Shown: positions 1,111 through 18,385 of the stretch, piece after piece
How positions within the stretch are numbered: position 1 is the stretch's first letter
Layout: every line of letters starts with the position of its first letter
Assembly (NCBI GenBank): GCA_027603945.1
Contig: JADIIU010000192.1
Span: forward strand, 1-18,385
Source of the DNA: Terramyces sp. JEL0728
Lineage: Eukaryota > Chytridiomycota > Chytridiomycetes > Rhizophydiales > Terramycetaceae
Direction of reading: 5' to 3'
DNA length: 18,385 nt
Translations under genes and position numbers: made by a program
The notes under the pieces: model-generated
The model's database searches: none
Told to the model about the DNA's origin: nothing
What the model saw: only the letters and a program-made list of their open reading frames with translations

Positions 1111-1380
1111 ATGGCAACTTGGGATAACTTGCCACCAGAATTAATTGATATGATTTTTAAACAAAAGAAAAAGAATTTCTTTAATGAAAAAGCTAAACAA
1201 CTTGAATCTAATTTAAAGTTTTTTTCGTGTGATAGCCAAGGTTTAGCATTTCTAAAAATAAAACAAGGATATTTTAATGTAGTAACATATCACAATATAA
1301 GAATATTTAAGTTGTTTTTGAGAAAACCAAATGATATGCATTTGGTAACTGAATTTATATACGATATTAGTAATTTGTAA
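1111..1380 (+). CDS. Small F-box-like protein (89 aa) in the viral block
   Basis: This intact 89-residue frame starts at an ATG 63 bp after the capsid stop, behind a very AT-rich leader. Residues 4-16 read WDNLPPELIDMIF, the classical start of an F-box, which binds Skp1 in SCF ubiquitin ligases. The rest is Lys/Phe-rich and too short for the usual substrate-binding repeats, so the protein would be an F-box head with a short tail. F-box proteins are a recurring theme in large eukaryotic DNA viruses, where they redirect host ubiquitination. The position between capsid and ATPase genes, on the same strand, suggests it belongs to the viral element. The motif is short and the match could be fortuitous. 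Confidence 0.45.
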   Translation: MATWDNLPPELIDMIFKQKKKNFFNEKAKQLESNLKFFSCDSQGLAFLKIKQGYFNVVTYHNIRIFKLFLRKPNDMHLVTEFIYDISNL

Positions 1381-1402
1381 ATTCTGTTTTAACTTATAAA
1401 TT
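1372..1402. terminator. Stem-loop spanning two convergent stop codons
   Basis: AATTTGTAA (1372-1380) and TTATAAATT (1394-1402) form a 9-bp stem with one G-U wobble and a 13-nt loop. The left arm contains the TAA of the F-box-like gene, and the right arm contains the stop of the minus-strand mini-gene. It could serve as a shared bidirectional 3' end. The composition is AT-rich, so chance is possible. Confidence 0.3.
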
Positions 1403-1528
1403 GTCAGCCAAGTGATATCCAATGTTTGCACCTATTAACAAACCTGGAACATTTCCATGTAAAAACCCAAGTGTAGCTCCACTAAGTGTTCCAGCAACAA
1501 GTTTAATTTTACTCTTTTTCTTTGCCAT
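1394..1528 (-). CDS. 44-residue basic, glycine-rich hydrophobic peptide
   Basis: This short minus-strand frame has an ATG at 1528-1526 and a TAA at 1396-1394. It begins MAKKKSKIK and continues with a Gly/Ala/Leu-rich stretch in which glycines recur at short intervals (about residues 13, 17, 21, 25, 29, 33, 37), ending ADNL. A basic head followed by a glycine-zipper-like membrane-active helix resembles small virion or membrane proteins encoded near capsid genes in polinton-like viruses and virophages. It lies antisense between the F-box-like gene and the ATPase and converges with the former. A chance frame of this length is possible, but its composition is far from random. Function is unknown. 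Confidence 0.45.
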   Translation of the reverse strand: MAKKKSKIKLVAGTLSGATLGFLHGNVPGLLIGANIGYHLADNL

Positions 1529-1579
1529 TTGTAATACACATTAAATTAATTTAAGCAATTATATAGACCTTTGATTAAT

Positions 1580-2086
1580 ATGTTAAAGAAAAATAATAGA
1601 TTAAATAGATTCATGGAGAATCCTGATGAGACTTATGAGAATTTCATAGAGACGTTTGAGGAACCAAAAATTAAAATTTTGGATGATTTGGAAAAAGAAC
1701 AGAAAAGAACTATTGAGAGGTATGATAAAAAGATAGCAAACGATGTATTAGTAATTTTGGATGATTGTGTCTCATTTAAAAAGTTTATCAATTCATATGG
1801 ATTTGAGAAGTTTATATTTAATTCCAGACATTACAATATATCCTGTATAATTAGTAGTCAAACTTATTTTAGTATTCCAAAAACAATTAGACAGAATGCT
1901 AGCGGAATTTGTTTGTTTTTCAATGGAAATGAAAAAGATGTAAAGTTGATTTATGAGGAGAATTCTTGTAAATTGAATTTCAAAGAGTTTTTGGAAATGT
2001 ATAAGAGTGTTGTGAGTGTTCCATTTAATTTCTTGTATATTAATTATCAGAATACATTAGAGCATGAGGTCAGGACACTTTCTTGA
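1580..2086 (+). pseudogene. A32-like (FtsK/HerA) genome-packaging ATPase, 5'-truncated
   Basis: This frame (168 residues from the ATG at 1580) matches the second half of an A32-type packaging ATPase, which pumps viral DNA into capsids. VLVILDD (about residues 57-63) is the Walker B strand with its acidic pair. IISSQTYFSIPKTIRQNAS (about residues 92-110) fits the sensor strand and following helix of this family, and a conserved strand FNFLYINY lies near the C-terminus. The Walker A P-loop that should precede residue 1 is absent, and no such motif is seen in the ~180 bp upstream, which carry the antisense mini-gene. The protein would not bind ATP normally, so I call it a remnant. The last ~30 bases overlap an antisense hAT fragment, so the tail may be foreign sequence. 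Confidence 0.65.
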
Positions 2087-2383
2087 GTGGTGTTTTCGAA
2101 GGTGAGTTAACATTGTGCCAGTAGATGGTCCTGTCAGAACTTTAGGGTGGTTTTTTGGGCAGTAATTGCACCTTAATTTCTTAAGCGTCACTTCAGTTCC
2201 ATCTTTTATCTCTACCACCTCAAACTTTGTGTAGTGTTCACTATTTTCTTGACTTTGAGTGAGAGGTTGCAGATATCGTCTTCAACTAGTTGATCGTCGT
2301 CTTCTGCTCGTTGGTCAACTCCAATTAGTTGATCATCGCATTCAGTTCGTTGATCATCATCTTCAGCTATTGCCCTTCCCATC
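2058..2383 (-). pseudogene. hAT transposase N-terminus with BED zinc finger, frameshifted fragment
   Basis: On the minus strand an ATG at 2383 opens a frame with a repetitive Asp/Gln-rich stretch (DDDQ motifs). After a frameshift near 2290-2240 a second frame runs to the stop at 2058. It contains LRCNYCPKN and, about 18 residues later, THLRKHH, which together form a C-x2-C...H-x3-H BED-type finger as found at the N-terminus of hAT transposases. The dimerisation and catalytic domains that should follow would lie below 2058, where viral sequence stands instead, so this is a truncated piece. Its end overlaps the last bases of the ATPase frame and marks a junction. A related hAT core fragment lies on the opposite strand at 2702. 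Confidence 0.55.
2275..2360. repeat. Degenerate ~21-bp tandem repeat (GTTGATCATC type)
   Basis: Three to four imperfect units related to GTTGATCATCGCATTCAGTT and GTTGATCATCATCTTCAGCT follow one another. On the minus strand they encode the acidic DDDQ repeats ahead of the BED finger. Confidence 0.5.
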
Positions 2384-2409
2384 AGATTACAGATGAAAAA
2401 AAAGTCTTG

Positions 2410-2487
2410 GTTATGGGTAAAAACTAGGTAAAAATGGGTAGGTTAGAAAAGCTCCTAACTATACCCTAACCATACCCAGCCTTAGTT
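2410..2487. repeat. Remnant of a MITE ending TACCCAGCCTTAGTT
   Basis: The 15-mer TACCCAGCCTTAGTT at 2473-2487 recurs exactly at 4499-4513, where it is one end of a MITE. TAGGTAAAAATG also occurs in both copies (2425 and 4417). Between them GGGTAGGTTAG and CTAACTATACCC form an imperfect hairpin at about 2434-2464. No matching left terminus was found, so only the right end appears to survive. Confidence 0.4.
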
Positions 2488-2701
2488 CAAATGCATAATA
2501 ATCAGGACCTTCCCAATAACGCTACTTTTTCAAATCGAAATGATCTAACTAATATATTTGGTCAATTTTTTGGGATGTTTTGTCCCAAAAAAAGGCTTAG
2601 GGTTATTGCGTTTTTCAGCCAAAATAAAAAAGTGGTGACTTGCATATCAGCCACTACTTAAATTTCGCAGATATTAAATTAGTAGATTAAACCAAAAAAC
2701 A

Positions 2702-2880
2702 AACATTCTATTGGTCGCATTCAAACTTTTGACCGAAGAGCACGATGGAAAAAGTTTGGCTGACGCTTTGATTGAAGTTTTGGAAGACTTTGAAATTGCT
2801 GATAGACTACTTGGAGTAACGGCTGATAATGCATCAAACAACTCAACTATGATGGCTCATCTTGAACAGTATTACAAAGC
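2702..2880 (+). pseudogene. hAT transposase core fragment
   Basis: The frame contains FKLLTEEHDGKSLADAL followed by GVTADNASNNSTMM, the segment around an early catalytic Asp of hAT transposases, whose usual form is close to DNASNN. Only about 60 residues are present; flanking hAT domains are missing. There is no ATG, since the reading frame opens with TTG at 2711. It is fused in frame to the accessory ORF of the Tc1/IS630-like element and lies ~95 bp inside that element's left terminus. It therefore seems to be an insertion remnant or recombination product. It is on the strand opposite to the BED finger fragment at 2058-2383. Confidence 0.65.
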
Positions 2881-2890
2881 CAACTATTTA

Positions 2891-3748
2891 TTTTCAATCC
2901 AGCTGCAAGGATATGTGAAAGATTACACAAATCAGCAAAACCGGTCCTCTGAGGAATTAGAGGTAGTTTCTATCGATTGCAATAATGGTCTTGAGCTGAG
3001 GGAAAAGGTATGGGAGGCATTCGAACCAAAACTTGTAAATGGTGCAAAGTTGGTTGATGGGGTATTTAGGATCGATGAGAATCGTCCCACAAGTACAGAG
3101 ATGGATAATTATATATATATGAGACGACATCGACGCTCAACACCATTTGGGACCAACATACCTCCTTCAACTTTACAATCTTTACAGAACAGCGCGGAAC
3201 CAGTTGAAGTACACATTCTCAAATACTCGAATGTTTTAAAATTGAAGGACCATTGGAATTCCTTTCGAAAAGAATGTTTGGATCCCCCTTTAACTGATAG
3301 GTCAGGTGCCATATCAAATGAATTAGTACATGAATATGTTGATCGATTGAGGACCAATCATCCGGAGCTTAGTGGCGATTATGTTAATTGGGCGAGATGG
3401 ATTTTAAACAATAACCCTCCAGATAGGTGGGACACATTGACAAGAGATGGGCCACCACCAAACTTAAGTAATCAATTTCGAGACGGGGTTGACACTCCAG
3501 CGGATCAAGCTATCTCTTTGCTTTGAAACAACTTTGGAATTGTTCAAAGCTGCATGGCAGATATGAAAATGGAACAACTTAAAACAACACAGCAATCATA
3601 CATCCGTCTAATGCAAATAAGAATAGATGCGTTGGAATCCACACTGCAAACATACGATCGCATGGCAGGTGAAGTTATGGATCAAATTGACCTTGGCTTG
3701 CGCATTGAAAGGTTCAGAATACGAACAATTAGTTCAAGAACAATTTGA
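2891..3748 (+). pseudogene. Accessory ORF of the two-ORF transposon, copy 1
   Basis: From FSIQLQGYVKDYTNQQ onward this frame is colinear with the intact accessory protein at 13509-14468. Shared landmarks are KD..NQQ, a WEAFEP/WDLLQHH helix, TLQSL/TLQNL, DRSGAISN/DRASATSN, WARWIL/WASYIA and a PPP motif before a helix. A single in-frame TGA at 3524-3526 splits it. The same frame resumes from the ATG at 3554 with the coiled-coil tail (ALESTLQTYDRM matching the family tail). AATAAA at 3768 follows the stop. The family has no function that I recognise. The predicted coiled coil and its constant pairing with a transposase suggest a DNA-binding or oligomerising partner, which is inference. Confidence 0.6.
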
Positions 3749-3779
3749 TATAGATCATGCATAAACAAATAAAGACTTT

Positions 3780-4092
3780 TTATTGAATTGAATCATAATT
3801 GTCATCTCTATCATGATATCCTTCAGGAAATATTGGTGTACAGCCTGGATTAGCAGCTTCATATCCACATTTATTGAATATTTTGGTAAAGTTATATTGT
3901 TTATAGGAAGCAAAAATATTAGCTACATATTTGTTCATGTCCTTCTTGTTTTTAATCAAATCTTTCTCGTACCCTTTCAGAAAGCGCTGTTTAACCATCC
4001 CAAATAAAAATTCAATGGGTTAAAGAACGGGCAATAAGAAAATAGGGACTGCCCATATGCCGCATCATTTCCACTAAACTTGGATCGGTGCT
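3780..4092 (-). pseudogene. Tc1/IS630-like transposase C-terminus, copy 1 (frameshifted)
   Basis: The minus-strand frame from 3998 down to 3780 reads MVKQRFLKGYEKD and later FNKCGYEAANPGC, which matches FRKCGYE...NPGC of the copy at 14578-15845. Just upstream in another frame is SYCPFFNP, and in the restored local frame the catalytic-Glu motif PIEF precedes it by family order (YCPFxNxIEF in the other copy). Further upstream DPSLVEMMRHMGSP in a third frame matches the helix between the second Asp and the Glu. At least two frameshifts therefore exist. The stop codon is contained in an AATAAA (minus strand, 3779-3784). The N-terminal half is lost or hidden beyond the MITE. Confidence 0.55.
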
Positions 4093-4181
4093 TATCCAAT
4101 TTTGATGAAGGTCCGACTCTCTCATTTACCGGTATAGAGTAAATATCAATATCAGAACCAATTCTATCAGTATTTCTTTCA

Positions 4182-11213: not shown

Positions 11214-12527
11214 ATGTCTAAGGCCCTAAAAAAAAATAATGAAAATAAAATTTTACGTGGGCAAAATTCAGATCGGCCTTCGACATACATGATAATTCAT
11301 CAATTTAAAGAAATGGAAGAAAATTATACCACAAATGAAATTGCAGATACTGAAAACCACCAATTCATCAAAAATTTTAGGAGAAGCTACTCAATGAAAA
11401 CAAAGCAAATGGCAATTAAGCGTATCACAGATTTGCAGGATTCAGTAAAGCATCCAATAGTTCAAGTATCTAAAGAACTACCTATTCCAGTAAGAATACT
11501 TAGAAAATGGTGGTCGGATGCAGAGGGTATTATGGCAATGGATGAAAATAAGAAAACATTACATGAAGGAAGAAAGAGAAAACACCAAAAAGGAGAAATT
11601 CATGCTGTTCAATTCATCAAAGATAAAAGAGAGCTCAGAAAACCAGCAATTAGCGCATTGGATGTAGCAAAAGAAGTCTCTACAAGATTTCCTAATGAAT
11701 TTGGAAATTTGGACAAATGTAGGAGCTGGGTGTATAGGATTTTGGATAGAAACAATTTAAGCATCAGGAGAAAGACCAATGAAGGCAATTCCAAGTTGTC
11801 CGAAGAGGAAATGGGGCAAATCCATCTGGATTTTGTTATGCATTTCAAAGCTCTAATGGGAATTCACAAATTCGATTTGCATAACGTCATCAATATGGAT
11901 GAGACAGGGTGTTACTTTGATATGCCATCCAACACCACCATTGCGGAGAAAGGATCAAAAACTGTTAGAATTGATTCAAATACAAATTCAAATCATTGCA
12001 CTGTGTTTTTATCTGTAGCTTTGGATGGCTCAAAGTTAAAGCCATTAGTTGTCTGGAAAGCAAAGCCGGATGGTACCGTATTCAGCAGGTTAAAACAATT
12101 GGATTCAAGAAATGCTTATTGTTGCCAGGAGAAAGGGTGGTGTAATGAAAATGCTATGGCTGTTTGGGTCGACCAATGTTTAAAGGACTATCTCAAGGAT
12201 ATCAGTAGCCCTAAACTTTTGATGATGGATAACTTTTCAGCTCATCAAACATCTGCAACGCGCAATTTACTTTCGAACCTGGGAACATCAATGCTAATGC
12301 TCCCACCTAACATGACTTCGAAAGTACAGATTCTGGATGTTGGGATCAATAAGCCATTCAAGGACTACATGCGCTCTATATACCATGACTATTTACTGAA
12401 CAATCCCACTGGCAAAGTAACAAAAGTTTTGATTTCAAAATGGATTGCAGACTCTTGGGAAAGAATACCTGAAGAATTTGTAATAAATACTGCACATCGC
12501 ATTGGGTTTATTAATAAAAATGAATAA
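11214..12527 (+). CDS. Pogo/Tigger-family DDE_1 transposase, intact
   Basis: This 437-residue frame is complete. Residues ~57-100 form a psq-like HTH (MKTKQMAIKRITD...LRKWWSDAE), ~125-187 a CENP-B/Tc5-type second HTH ending SWVYRILDRNNLSIRR, and ~224-400 the DDE_1 nuclease. Catalytic residues are visible as D229 in INMDETG, D339 in MMDNFSAH and D375 in VQILDVGINKPFK, a spacing of 35 residues between the last two, as expected for pogo-like enzymes (DD~35D). The protein would cut and paste DNA at TA sites. No stop or frameshift is present, unlike every other transposase here, so it is young or under selection. AATAAA lies at 12557. It converges with the gene at 12626. Clear terminal inverted repeats were not found, so a domesticated gene is possible. 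Confidence 0.85.
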   Translation: MSKALKKNNENKILRGQNSDRPSTYMIIHQFKEMEENYTTNEIADTENHQFIKNFRRSYSMKTKQMAIKRITDLQDSVKHPIVQVSKELPIPVRILRKWWSDAEGIMAMDENKKTLHEGRKRKHQKGEIHAVQFIKDKRELRKPAISALDVAKEVSTRFPNEFGNLDKCRSWVYRILDRNNLSIRRKTNEGNSKLSEEEMGQIHLDFVMHFKALMGIHKFDLHNVINMDETGCYFDMPSNTTIAEKGSKTVRIDSNTNSNHCTVFLSVALDGSKLKPLVVWKAKPDGTVFSRLKQLDSRNAYCCQEKGWCNENAMAVWVDQCLKDYLKDISSPKLLMMDNFSAHQTSATRNLLSNLGTSMLMLPPNMTSKVQILDVGINKPFKDYMRSIYHDYLLNNPTGKVTKVLISKWIADSWERIPEEFVINTAHRIGFINKNE

Positions 12528-12625: not shown

Positions 12626-13348
12626 TTATTGCCATAAGTCCACAAATTCTTCTGGGTACCCAGGTTCAAATGTTACAATTAATCCATCATCATCTCCACT
12701 CTTTCTGAACTTTATATCCACTCTTTCTCCTTCAAAGCAATAGAAAAATTGAACTTGAGAGGTACAACCAAAGAATTCTTGTGCCCAAGAAAAAATATAA
12801 GGAAGTTTTGATTTATATTCTGTAGCGTCAATCATACACCAAGTTTCATACTTGTGTCTCGTTATATTTTCTTGAATTTTGTTGAGTTCATTAATATCAG
12901 AATACAAAAATCCATTGTTTGGAAATTTTAAATGAGTTTCCAATCTCCAATTTCCGTTGAAAATATTTGATTTCACAATAATGTTGGCCTGCCAAATAAG
13001 TTTATCATATGTAAATTGGTAAGATTGTTGTTGGTGAATATTGGTATCTCTTTGGATACTATTGAAATCGAAATAAGTTTTTACAGTTTCTGGTGTTAAA
13101 TTACCACTATTTTTCCAGGTTTCAAATAAGTTATCTATAAAATTAAAATTAAACCGTTCAGGAAATCTTTCTTTTGCTTGTTGGTAAAGAAGTTCGTGTA
13201 TACTATGGAATGGAACTAAAACAGATCCTTTTTTTGGACATAAGGCTCTGTAAAGTGTGTACTCGTCAGAAGCTAAATTTTCAGATTTGCTACGTTTTCT
13301 ACTCATACTATTTAGAAGATAAAAAATGGCGTAATTTTTTATTGTCAT
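12626..13348 (-). CDS. Unrecognised ~226-240-residue protein
   Basis: Two ATGs are possible, 13348 (240 aa) and 13306 (226 aa). The second starts MSRKRSKSENL, a more natural N-terminus with a short basic patch that could be a nuclear signal. The protein is soluble, rich in aromatic and Asn/Gln residues, with no membrane segment, and ends in an acidic region (SGDDDGLIV, then GYPEEFVDLWQ). I recognise no domain. The frame is intact. Its stop lies inside an AATAAA (minus, 12625-12630), and it converges with the pogo transposase gene, 98 bp apart. Upstream, its start is ~110-155 bp from the terminal repeat of the two-ORF transposon, beyond which lies the divergent deaminase gene. It may be a host gene or a passenger of a mobile element. 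Confidence 0.5.
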   Translation of the reverse strand: MTIKNYAIFYLLNSMSRKRSKSENLASDEYTLYRALCPKKGSVLVPFHSIHELLYQQAKERFPERFNFNFIDNLFETWKNSGNLTPETVKTYFDFNSIQRDTNIHQQQSYQFTYDKLIWQANIIVKSNIFNGNWRLETHLKFPNNGFLYSDINELNKIQENITRHKYETWCMIDATEYKSKLPYIFSWAQEFFGCTSQVQFFYCFEGERVDIKFRKSGDDDGLIVTFEPGYPEEFVDLWQ

Positions 13349-13460
13349 TTATGAAATAACCAATCAAAAATTAAGAAATCAGGTGACCTTTACACATGAC
13401 TATAACAAAAAATGTTAATGTTTTGAACTCCATTTCGCAACATTTAAAATTTTTTATGTA

Positions 13461-13481
13461 TTGCGCTTTCACCAGAAAATG
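13461..13481 (+). repeat. Left terminal inverted repeat of the two-ORF transposon
   Basis: TTGCGC + 9 nt + AAAATG, adjacent to TA at 13459-13460. The two conserved blocks match the inverted right end and the left end at 2606. Confidence 0.65.
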
Positions 13482-13508
13482 AAATTGTAGCGATTTTTTA
13501 TCATTTGA

Positions 13509-14468
13509 ATGGCAACTATCGCAAGACAAGACACCTTTTTCACCATTAAACTCCAAGTTGTAGTGAAGGATTTCCTGAACCAGCAAACTAGAAATCTAGC
13601 AAATCATGGTGAACAGACGATTTACTGCAGTAGTCCTGAAGATTTTGTACAGAAGCTGTGGGATCTCTTACAACACCATTTAGAAAAGGAAGTGACTTTT
13701 GACGAACATGGCTTAAACCCAGTAATGGCGAGTGAAGGTCCGACAATTGACAGTATTGACAAATTCATTAGATTCAAGAGCAGCAATCATATGAAATTGC
13801 CATCTCAAATTACGCTTACAACTTTGCAAAATTTAGCTGCAAAAGATGCTTTTAATACTATAGTCTGTAGATACTCAATTAGTGTTTGTAAATTAAAACA
13901 ATGGACCACAATTCAGGAAAAATTCATCCAACACCAAAATGTTGACAGAGCTAGTGCAACAAGCAACACAGTTGTTCAAGAAATTATGCGGAAATTACGG
14001 CAGGAATGGAGTGAAAGATACACGGCCGGTAGTGCACATTGGATGAATTGGGCGTCATATATCGCAGAGCAACCGATTCACACACATGAAGATAAAATCA
14101 AAGAACCACCACCTTCTGATCTGATTCGACATTTCTGTTCTGTCCCTAGTAATAGGCAACTGCGCGTCGAAGAGTTACACAGCAGCCTTAGGGTATCATC
14201 GAACATTGTTGAACAAACCCAATACTTGTTGAATCAAATACAAGATATCTACAGACAACAGCAGGAAGAACACAAGATTCGTGATCAAGAGATGGAAAGT
14301 GCAATTAGCCATTTTCAATCTGCTATGAGACAACAAAAGGAAGAAAACAGAATACGTGAACAGGAGATGAGAAACGCACTTTTCATTTTTCAATCTGTTT
14401 TGGATGCGTATGACAATGTAATACCCGAAATGGAGGTACAGGTAAGACTGATGATAGGAGGCCAGTAG
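13509..14468 (+). CDS. Transposon accessory protein with coiled-coil tail (319 aa, intact)
   Basis: The ATG at 13509 is only 48 bp inside the left terminus. The N-terminal ~215 residues are predicted mixed/helical with family landmarks seen also in copy 1: KDFLNQQ (~22-28), TTLQNL (~100-105), DRASATSN (~143-150), HWMNWASYI (~175-183) and PPPSDLIRHF (~198-207). Residues ~235-310 are a charged coiled coil made by a 25-residue duplication (IRDQEMESAISHFQS then IREQEMRNALFIFQS), due to a 75-bp tandem repeat at 14256-14405. I recognise no known domain. AATAAA lies at 14546. It remains open although the partner transposase is broken. It may bind DNA or the transposase, or be on its way to a host role; all this is inference. 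Confidence 0.65.
   Translation: MATIARQDTFFTIKLQVVVKDFLNQQTRNLANHGEQTIYCSSPEDFVQKLWDLLQHHLEKEVTFDEHGLNPVMASEGPTIDSIDKFIRFKSSNHMKLPSQITLTTLQNLAAKDAFNTIVCRYSISVCKLKQWTTIQEKFIQHQNVDRASATSNTVVQEIMRKLRQEWSERYTAGSAHWMNWASYIAEQPIHTHEDKIKEPPPSDLIRHFCSVPSNRQLRVEELHSSLRVSSNIVEQTQYLLNQIQDIYRQQQEEHKIRDQEMESAISHFQSAMRQQKEENRIREQEMRNALFIFQSVLDAYDNVIPEMEVQVRLMIGGQ
14256..14405 (+). repeat. 75-bp tandem duplication inside the accessory ORF
   Basis: Units 14256-14330 and 14331-14405 align, beginning CAACAGCAGGAAGAA and CAACAAAAGGAAGAA, and encode two 25-residue coiled-coil repeats. Copy 1 of the family has a shorter tail without this duplication. Confidence 0.6.
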
Positions 14469-14577
14469 GCCAATCGAACATTCAAGTTTAACTAATCGAT
14501 TACGAGGACGCATAACGGAACAGTTGGACACGGACCACGCACTGTAATAAAACATAAAACCTGCTTTATTTTCCACC

Positions 14578-15845
14578 TCAAAGGATGTTTTCAAGTTGGT
14601 CAAATTCTGAATCCTTCTGCAATTCTTCCTCAGCATTTTCGTCACTTTCTTCACTATCATACAATTCATTGCTAATAATATCTAGTTGTGGGGTTTCAAC
14701 CTCTAAATTTAAAATTGGGAATACTAGTAGCAGATTGCGTATTTATTGACATTGGATTGACATCTTGTGCATTAACTAAAGGTGGAAATAGTGAGGACTC
14801 AGAAAATTCAAGTGCAGCTTCTTCATAGACTGATGGTTCATTCTGTCGTGCTCCAGAATTGGCTTGAATACTTTTTCCCATTATGTCTACACATCCAGGA
14901 TTGAAACTGAAATCAAACTCATAACCGCATTTACGAAAGATTCATGAGAAATCGTAGACGAGATATCTATCAAAAATACTATTCACAAATGGAGCAAGTG
15001 GAACATTCTTTCCTTCTTTGTAGTATTTCCTGAAATCCTTTTTAATCATTCCAAACAGGAATTCTATAGAGTTGTAGAAAGGACAATATGCAGGCAAATA
15101 AACTGGAAAATCTCAATTGAACGAATCAAGTGAACAATATCTGGATCTTTGCTTCATCCATAATCCAGACACTGTTTTTACCAGGATAGCCTTGTATGTT
15201 TCTATTATACCTGGCAAAGTCGGTGATACATTCGACAAAAACCTTTCTAGTAAAAGTACCTTCAACTCTGTAATAGTCAAGGACGCCTGTTTCATTGATA
15301 AATGCCAAATAAGAAACTCTTGGCTTATGCGTAAATTCGCCTTTTCTAATGATTCGTTCTCCTTTTACACTATAGCCCCCGATTATCAAAAGAAACTTTA
15401 TCTAAGAATACCAATTGCTGTTTCATCCAATGAATACTTTAAAGTTCTTTGCTGTATCGAATGACATCCTTGAACGCGATATTTAGTGCACGACGTTCTA
15501 CCACTTTTCTCGTAAAGTTAGATTTATGTAGAATCATAAAAATTGTTGTCAACCCAATAGTTTTTGGAAAGAAAACATCCTGAAATCTGTCTCTGCATTC
15601 TGCGATGTATGAAGTTGGGTTCTCATTAAAATAGTCGATAATCCATTGCATTTCATCAGTAGTAATTCTTCCAATCTTTTGTGTTTGTTCTCTGGTTAAA
15701 CTTTGTCCACTTGCATACTTGTTCACCATCTACTGATTGTTGATTTGCTCTTTGCCAATACTTTGGAAAGACGAGCTTGAGTTATCCCGGCATAGTAATA
15801 CGCATAGAGGCAATGAAACTGTGTTAATATTCATTACCTTCACTT
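14578..15845 (-). pseudogene. Tc1/IS630-like DD(~34)E transposase, multiply frameshifted
   Basis: Read on the minus strand in order: an HTH with YAYYYAGITQARLSKV and KSTISRW; a frameshift near 15732; NKYASGQSLTREQTQKIGR and a second helical DNA-binding part (15729-15439); then VFLDKVSFDNRG in another frame with the first catalytic Asp (~15405-15390). Next come GYSVKGERI and, after a strand, SVWIMDEAKIQ with the second Asp (stop at 15126), then two shifts to YLPAYCPFYNSIEF with the catalytic Glu. After an in-frame TGA near 14940 comes FRKCGYEF...NPGC. The final frame has an acidic tail (ESDENAEEELQ) ending at 14578. This is the DDE_3 arrangement. At least four disruptions make it inactive. AATAAA (minus, 14565-14570) follows the stop by 8 nt. 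Confidence 0.7.
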
Positions 15846-15918
15846 CCAGATGTGCTTGCTTGCCCAAAACTGCATCTTTTAGACTTATTTTTTCAGTGCG
15901 ACTTACAATTATCTACCG

Positions 15919-15928
15919 TCGCATGCGA
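15919..15928. repeat. Subterminal palindrome TCGCATGCGA
   Basis: A perfect 10-bp palindrome extended by imperfect arms (15916-15931) lies ~45 bp inside the right terminus, on the 5' side of the transposase. TCGCATGC recurs at 18218-18225, ~50 bp upstream of the third transposase. It could be a transposase binding site or promoter operator. Confidence 0.35.
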
Positions 15929-15951
15929 TGGCTTTTTCTCATCGTGTGTTA

Positions 15952-15972
15952 CATTTTAAACTGTTGGCGCAA
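15952..15972 (-). repeat. Right terminal inverted repeat of the two-ORF transposon
   Basis: CATTTT + 9 nt + GCGCAA, followed by TA at 15973-15974. It is the inverse of the left end with identical spacing. Confidence 0.65.
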
Positions 15973-16061
15973 TACCGCTTTATAATGCATTAAAGTTGAA
16001 TAAGGTGTGGCTTAAATTTTTGTTAACTAAAACATTTCGTGTGGCTTTTACTTCATCATAA

Positions 16062-18062: not shown

Positions 18063-18266
18063 TGAAAAACCAACAAATAAATGCCTTTAAAATTATTCAG
18101 CTTCGGCAACTTTAATATTGCTGCGTCGGTTCCAATGGGAATTCAATAAATATTTTAAGCACTTTTGAAATAACGCACTAAATTTCACACTTGAAAATGA
18201 TCACCAAGATAGTAAAGTCGCATGCATCCAATGCTGTCAAAGTAAAACATGCTTACTAACTTATAG
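18063..18266. other. 3' flank of the deaminase gene and presumed start of a third transposon copy
   Basis: After the AATAAA the DNA is non-coding. A block with CGCAC...TTGAAAATG near 18174-18200 weakly resembles the family terminus, and TCGCATGC at 18218 matches the subterminal palindrome of the complete copy. The exact boundary cannot be fixed. Confidence 0.3.
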
Positions 18267-18385
18267 TATCACCTCTTATACGGTTATTTTTATCTTGGCT
18301 TTCCTGTTGCCGATTTGTGCATTGTCTACAAGAAAGGCAAGTCATCTGTATATAGATGGATAAACGAATACGTAGCAAATGGAGA
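18267..18385 (+). CDS. Tc1/IS630-like transposase N-terminus, copy 3 (runs off the window)
   Basis: This open frame continues to the window end. It reads YHLLYGYFYLGFPVADL, then YKKGKSSVYRWINEYVANG, which aligns without gaps to the HTH of the 14578-15845 transposase (FHCLYAYYYAGITQARL, then KSKSTISRW and NKYASG). It keeps in one frame the Trp-Ile/Val-Asn-Lys/Glu-Tyr junction that is frameshifted in that copy. No ATG precedes it in frame; the start may be in an upstream exon or lost. The sequences have clearly diverged, so this is an older or different lineage of the same family. Confidence 0.6.

Follow-up and report, generated by a model that had tools for sequence, protein, structure and literature searches.

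A decayed yet full-length two-gene transposon copy of the IS630-Tc1-mariner group in the chytrid Terramyces sp. JEL0728

Textbook accounts present Tc1/mariner elements as the model of a transposon with one protein. A locus in the genome of the chytrid Terramyces sp. JEL0728, where two convergent genes lie between inverted ends flanked by TA, raises the question whether an element related to them can carry a second gene of its own, or whether two unrelated neighbours have merely come to lie side by side. An earlier note on this DNA had read the locus as one member of a two-gene lineage, in which the accessory protein assists transposition or regulation. The window analysed here is the whole of contig C192 (18,385 bp), from an assembly of 15.0 Mb in 231 contigs, and it was compared with copies within the host genome and with protein databases. 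The earlier interpretation is partly supported: the lineage itself stands on the evidence set out below, and a helper or regulatory role of the accessory gene (hereafter acc) is suggested by protein-level conservation together with analogy.

The segment 13461–15972 (copy a, 2,512 bp) is a copy, complete in length though decayed, of a compact DNA transposon that has two genes and belongs to the IS630-Tc1-mariner group. A plus-strand acc is followed by a minus-strand DDE_3 transposase, both inside TA-flanked TTGCGC ends, and the two genes, arranged tail to tail, occupy nearly all of the copy. The acc-side terminus (13461–13484, plus strand; TTGCGC...AAAATG) is preceded by TA at 13459–13460, and the acc start codon lies 48 bp inside it. 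The transposase-side terminus (15949–15972, minus strand; TTGCGCC...AAAATG) adjoins TA at 15973–15974. The inverted ends with TA on both sides that had been described for this locus are thus confirmed, as TA-TTGCGC at 13459 (plus) and 15974 (minus). The first 6 bp of the two ends agree perfectly, 16 of 24 bases are alike, and AAAATG stands at an equal offset in both. Terminal inverted repeats, as in other members of the IS630-Tc1-mariner group, are accordingly present in a short and imperfect form, and among the copies found only copy a has both ends.

Within the window, TATTGCGC occurs just twice, as the two ends of copy a, and the sole additional TATTGCGY is TATTGCGT at 2604. Among 300 random sequences generated by a first-order model at the length of the window, the mean count of TATTGCGY was 0.65, and none contained the complete end pattern, TATTGCGY-N9-AAAATR-NAA. 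Across the 15.0 Mb this pattern has three exact matches, all within the window (2604 plus, 13459 plus, 15974 minus), a count that is partly circular because the pattern was derived from those same three ends. When up to two mismatches are allowed, there are 94 matches, compared with 42 for a reversed control.

The transposase of copy a (14578–15876, minus strand) is dead as it stands, since its reading jumps frame several times and contains stops. Relatives match its stretch 15876–14882. Read strictly, the last frame that matches meets its first stop at 14698–14696, and the acidic tail down to 14578 is our own reading. Its joined pieces are 53% identical over 99% to the environmental protein P0005, which together with a second environmental protein, P0006 (50%), is closest to it; oomycete, mosquito and chytrid proteins that the databases name Tc1-like come next. 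Compared with DDE_3, copy a gives an E value of 8e-6, under the Pfam cut-off for that fragment, and the copy on contig C81 gives 5e-14, over the cut-off; the relatives carry PF13358. A minus-strand DD(~34)E transposase had been claimed for this locus: the gene is indeed there, and as it is broken, the spacing of 34 residues between D and E can be counted only in the C81 copy and in all six relatives measured. P0005, P0006 and P0098 exceed the NCBIfam cut-off for IS630 transposases. No PDB sequence matched the transposase profile A3 (ten relatives) at E <= 0.01, a limit of sequence searching under which the fold may still agree. For this reason the narrow label is withheld, and membership of the IS630-Tc1-mariner group, rather than of Tc1 or mariner proper, appears to be the safe assignment from sequence comparison. 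No relatives were found among viral contigs (queried with P0001, P0002, P0006, P0098 and profile A3) or among GTDB genome contigs (profile A3), both collections with few or no chytrids.

The second gene, acc, extends from 13509 to 14547 on the plus strand. The 319-aa ORF noted earlier is present, its raw frame open to 14468, and over the matched part it is identical to the GenBank entry HDV01_002704 (337 aa), with which the annotated frame ends at 14547. That model skips about 25 nt near 14440 (14430–14465) as an intron; P0002 and copy e are without this stretch, which may be either an intron or a small insertion. About 25 additional residues in the coiled-coil part of P0001 (acc of copy a) resemble an internal repeat.

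A profile search with acc through 5.8 billion proteins (2,117 candidates), which required shared 5-residue words and from which distant relatives may escape, returned four proteins at E <= 0.01, two of them from the Terramyces genome itself. P0002, from Boothiomyces sp. JEL0838, is an open acc of 314 aa with 44% identity, and its cluster has two members on two contigs. P0004, from Boothiomyces sp. JEL0866, is 79% identical to the acc of copy b over 131 aa. Boothiomyces and Terramyces belong to one family, Terramycetaceae, and this search found no relative of acc outside it. Among Pfam families none matched acc over the curated cut-off, and no DNA-binding domain, zinc finger or kinase was recognised there; among PHROG families none matched at E <= 0.01. 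Fib_alpha, MAP65, Bacillus_HBL and similar candidates, all below the cut-off and mostly in the coiled-coil part, were rejected as composition.

A structural model of P0002 built from four sequences is weak (mean pLDDT 64, pTM 0.36). Its N-terminal part is alpha/beta, its centre is helical, and a helix of 71 residues spans 218–288. Compared with the PDB, the model gave 43 matches at E <= 10 and none at E <= 0.001, and the acc profile matched a single chain among PDB sequences, at E 0.51. The coiled-coil nature earlier ascribed to the ~319-aa product is plausible in view of the long helix in this weak model, and is not proven by it. The acc of copies a, b, c and e, and likewise P0002, ends in EQxDxDHA or in a variant of this tail motif.

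In the whole genome we found six transposase loci and at least eight acc loci, with four convergent pairs (a, b, c and d). The acc count is a lower bound, as copy c was missed by genome searches with acc and was recovered through the ORF list and tblastn. The acc genes of the pairs start at 13509 (a) and 2885 (b) of the window, lie at C81:3132–4056 (c), and stand on C179 (d); transposase c is at C81:2485–3014, and transposase d is a short remnant of 23–40 aa at C179:486–629. Four acc loci are unpaired, namely e (C179:2888–3808), open over its length with no adjoining transposase, f (C136) and g (C81:7–279), both at contig ends, and h (C49), an N-terminal fragment. The unpaired transposases are an N-terminal stub on C47 (residues 12–97, two stops) and the last 110 bp of the window (from 18276), where 36 residues give a tblastn match to P0005 before the contig ends. 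C173:21488–21664 had appeared as a transposase at E 0.0105 and was dropped, since neither a second genome search nor tblastn queries with six transposases related to it (E <= 0.01) found one there. No intact element is among the copies found, every transposase locus being broken or partial.

Copy b is the second pair of the window, which the earlier note had placed at 2606–4181. The pair is real and has the same order and orientation as copy a; its right end at 4181 is unsupported, since similarity stops at 4052 and no terminus was seen. A probable acc-side terminus occupies 2606–2629 on the plus strand (TTGCGT...AAAATA), with TA at 2604–2605 and 16 of 24 bases shared with copy a. Its acc (2885–3764, plus strand) is 27–31% identical to P0001 and P0002 and is broken after 3526, the tail EQxDxDHA ending at 3764. 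The C-terminal part of its transposase lies at 3780–4052 on the minus strand, with a stop at 3782–3780.

Between the terminus and the acc of copy b lies a 173-bp fragment (2715–2887), presumably hAT-like, which is 100% identical to C88:1161–1333 and C47:97619–97791. The segments 2067–2204 and 2715–2887 are 97–100% identical to parts of C88:1161–1855 in opposite orientations, which indicates that a recent rearrangement touched the left flank of copy b. The gene model HDV01_002701 (P0003, 502 aa; 1111–3526) fuses ATPase pieces, this 173-bp fragment and the acc of copy b, and by the look of it is a mis-annotation; its precomputed PF27041 was not recovered when Pfam was searched again. Further left, virus-like genes occur in 1–2100: an ORF at 1571–2086 matches Pox_A32 (E 1.5e-8) and, among PHROG families, a terminase large subunit (E 9e-10), and an ORF at 152–1048 (298 aa) has no Pfam or PHROG match. 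This part of the window may be what is left of an insertion of Polinton-like or giant-virus-like origin. Elsewhere in the window, an open DDE_1 transposase of 437 aa (11214–12527), which we assume to be pogo-like, has three further partial places in the genome. A 240-aa ORF convergent with it (12626–13348) was found at this one place in the genome, and that pairing is not recurrent.

Copies c and d share a feature of their surroundings. C179:1–341 and C81:1813–2124, which adjoin the transposase side of d and c, belong to one multi-copy gene family (85% over 345 bp). Because of this shared neighbouring family the independence of the two copies is not certain, although their accs are much less alike than the flank is. 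A single insertion duplicated together with its flank was rejected as the origin of c and d: the flank is 85% identical over 345 bp, yet the acc of c and that of e, a close relative of d, are only 23% identical. Copy e (C179) is flanked by an inverted repeat, 2580–2803 and 3840–4063, that is 98.7% identical over 224 bp, and each arm carries one tRNA-Val and one tRNA-Lys gene; the repeat may bear on how this acc was kept or copied. An end-like sequence with two mismatches stands at C179:1826, on the side expected for e, and tblastn found no transposase similarity between it and the acc.

Whether acc lies inside the mobile unit can be judged from the distances between the genes and from the breakpoints of homology. 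In copy b the acc stop (3762–3764) and the transposase stop (3782–3780) leave 15 bp between them. In copies a and c the stop-to-stop distance is 30 and 40 bp when the last few residues are read in a neighbouring frame, and 148 and 111 bp when reading ends at the first stop codon met in the last frame that matches. The sole TTGCGY between the genes of copy a is TTGCGT at 14735, and copy c has none. Taken as an inner transposase end, that sequence fails, being preceded by GA and lying inside the last matching transposase frame. On the acc side, an 80% match of C49 to copy a starts at 13458, exactly at G-TA-TTG, and continues through the acc start, so that the TTGC terminus belongs to the acc side. 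On the other side, the window from 18118 and C47 are 93% alike over 274 columns starting exactly at TTGCTGCG, ahead of the transposase start, which shows that the transposase side likewise ends in TTGC. This further copy (18118–18385, plus strand) consists of the end TA-TTGCTGCG and the first 36 aa of a transposase before the contig end cuts it off. The two bases preceding TTGCTGCG are TA in the window (18116) and AT in C47; a TA target at both ends is seen in copy a, and the C47 end departs from it. Taken together, the stop-to-stop gaps, the lack of TA at 14735 and the C49 and C47 breakpoints make acc part of the mobile unit.

The two-gene lineage is therefore well supported, four of the six transposase loci being convergent with an acc and four of the eight acc loci being paired. 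A transposase between its own closer ends is excluded in copy b by the 15-bp gap and is unsupported in a and c. An acc independent of a transposase exists as one open case, C179:2888–3808, and acc can evidently persist alone.

The comparison of copies indicates that acc is conserved at the protein level, although its sequences have diverged to 21–42% identity. Over the alignment, the acc of b, c and d is 21, 22 and 40% identical to that of copy a. Between copies a and c the transposases are 40% identical and the accs 22–23%. In every one of the 14 acc pairs compared, similarity is higher at the first two codon positions than at the third, in alignments that were protein-guided and hence favour positions 1 and 2. 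Within the set a, b, e, f and g (eight of the pairs), identity at position 3 is 0.27–0.43 (chance 0.27–0.29), as against 0.44–0.74 at positions 1 and 2; pairs involving c are weak (0.36–0.54 at positions 1 and 2). The closest pair is d and e, where dN of 0.18 against dS of 0.35 gives a ratio of about 0.5; d itself is broken. On this evidence acc has been conserved as a protein across the diverged copies.

The best explanation of the whole, which we hold to be probable, is a mobile element that inserts at TA and encodes, in acc, a cofactor of its own. The transposase would mobilise the element by ordinary cut-and-paste at TA. The acc product would most likely oligomerise via its long C-terminal helix, its conserved N-terminal and central part might bind the transposase or the end complex, and the protein could then help or tune assembly, nuclear entry or regulation. 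Contact of acc with transposase or DNA is putative. The pair probably formed before Terramyces and Boothiomyces split, or else moved between both.

One alternative is that acc is a passenger captured by one element, for instance a gene with a host-serving, anti-silencing or anti-virus function, and has no part in transposition. Copy e, open without a transposase, would suit such a gene, as would the faster divergence of acc than of transposase between a and c, and no datum links acc to transposition. However, one would expect loss or exchange of most passengers, whereas order and orientation are kept here at four of six transposase loci through all the divergence of acc, and the profile search by shared 5-residue words offers no candidate source gene outside Terramycetaceae. 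We consider a passenger unlikely.

Instead of a helper, acc could be a self-regulator, that is a repressor or a copy-number control, with the lone open copy e perhaps kept by the host to silence the family. Copies are few in 15 Mb, and an open acc outlasts transposases that are all broken or partial; but elements can be rare and decayed for many other reasons, acc has no recognised DNA-binding domain, and we judge this role improbable. That the two genes are unrelated neighbours, the transposase with closer ends of its own and acc a separate repeat or gene family in the same gene-poor or contig-end regions, is very improbable: the position of many copies near contig ends (C81, C136, C179 and the window), copy e and the TTGCGT at 14735 point that way, but they are outweighed by the gap of copy b, the GA and the reading frame at 14735, the C49 breakpoint 48 bp ahead of acc, the convergence of all four pairs and, by rough arithmetic, the negligible chance of four pairings among six and eight loci in 15 Mb.

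Returning to the element-encoded cofactor, a bolder version can be put forward tentatively. A fungal lineage of the Tc1/mariner group may have gained, independently of TBE and Tec in ciliates, a two-protein transposition system made of a DD34E transposase and an orphan coiled-coil partner, and C179:2888–3808 may have been kept open after loss of its transposase, possibly as a host-kept repressor.

Among known systems, IS630/Tc1-like elements of oomycetes, mosquitoes and chytrids, presumably with a single gene (for instance P0012, P0013, P0014 and P0098), belong to the same transposase clade, with 37–45% identity over most of the length, and also share PF13358 and, where measured, the D–E spacing of 34. 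Harbinger and MuDR/VANDAL are DNA transposons with a second element-encoded protein; they belong to other transposase superfamilies, and the likeness is functional only. Published descriptions give Tc1 elements a single ORF and about 1.3 kb, or 1.2–1.3 kb for Tc1/mariner (PMC7325037), and pogo elements have one or two ORFs encoding transposase (PMC7386202). With two genes in 2,512 bp as against that single ORF, the chytrid element falls outside the narrow Tc1/mariner definition of the same source (PMC7325037). In the literature searched, where coverage of subscription titles is limited, we found no report of a two-gene Tc1/mariner element in fungi or of Terramyces transposons.

The chytrid element looks like a separate fungal case beside the TBE and Tec elements of ciliates, the latter from the genus Euplotes. 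Both ciliate families have three ORFs each (PMC7325037). The telomere-bearing elements (TBE) of Oxytricha, also in the Tc1/mariner group, resemble the chytrid element in having a DD34E transposase together with additional conserved genes that are proposed to encode accessory factors (PMC12242761; PMC7325037). Distinctive of TBE are three ORFs, ends of about 80 bp that resemble telomeres, ANT targets, and as extra proteins a 57-kDa zinc-finger/kinase protein and a 22-kDa protein (PMC12242761; PMC7325037). The chytrid element, in contrast, has two genes, TTGCGY ends and TA, and TBE is set apart from it by description only. All three TBE ORFs are apparently under purifying selection (PMC3731211). 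A 2025 paper finds it surprising that TBE, as members of the Tc1/mariner group, have accessory proteins, and reports that in an E. coli test these had no effect on DNA binding (PMC12242761). Tec is alike in being Tc1/mariner-related and DD34E with additional ORFs, one on the opposite strand, and has as its own features terminal repeats of about 700 bp, three ORFs and a site-specific recombinase as second ORF (PMC7325037). Unlike Tec, the chytrid element has ends that agree over about 24 bp only and an acc without a Pfam family above the cut-off. An accessory gene in the Tc1/mariner group is a known kind; acc itself, the host group and the layout are new within the literature searched. A second, different case in fungi would suggest that Tc1/mariner elements can gain partners more than once, and so small a two-gene unit would offer a setting in which to ask what contribution a partner makes to a mariner-type transposase.
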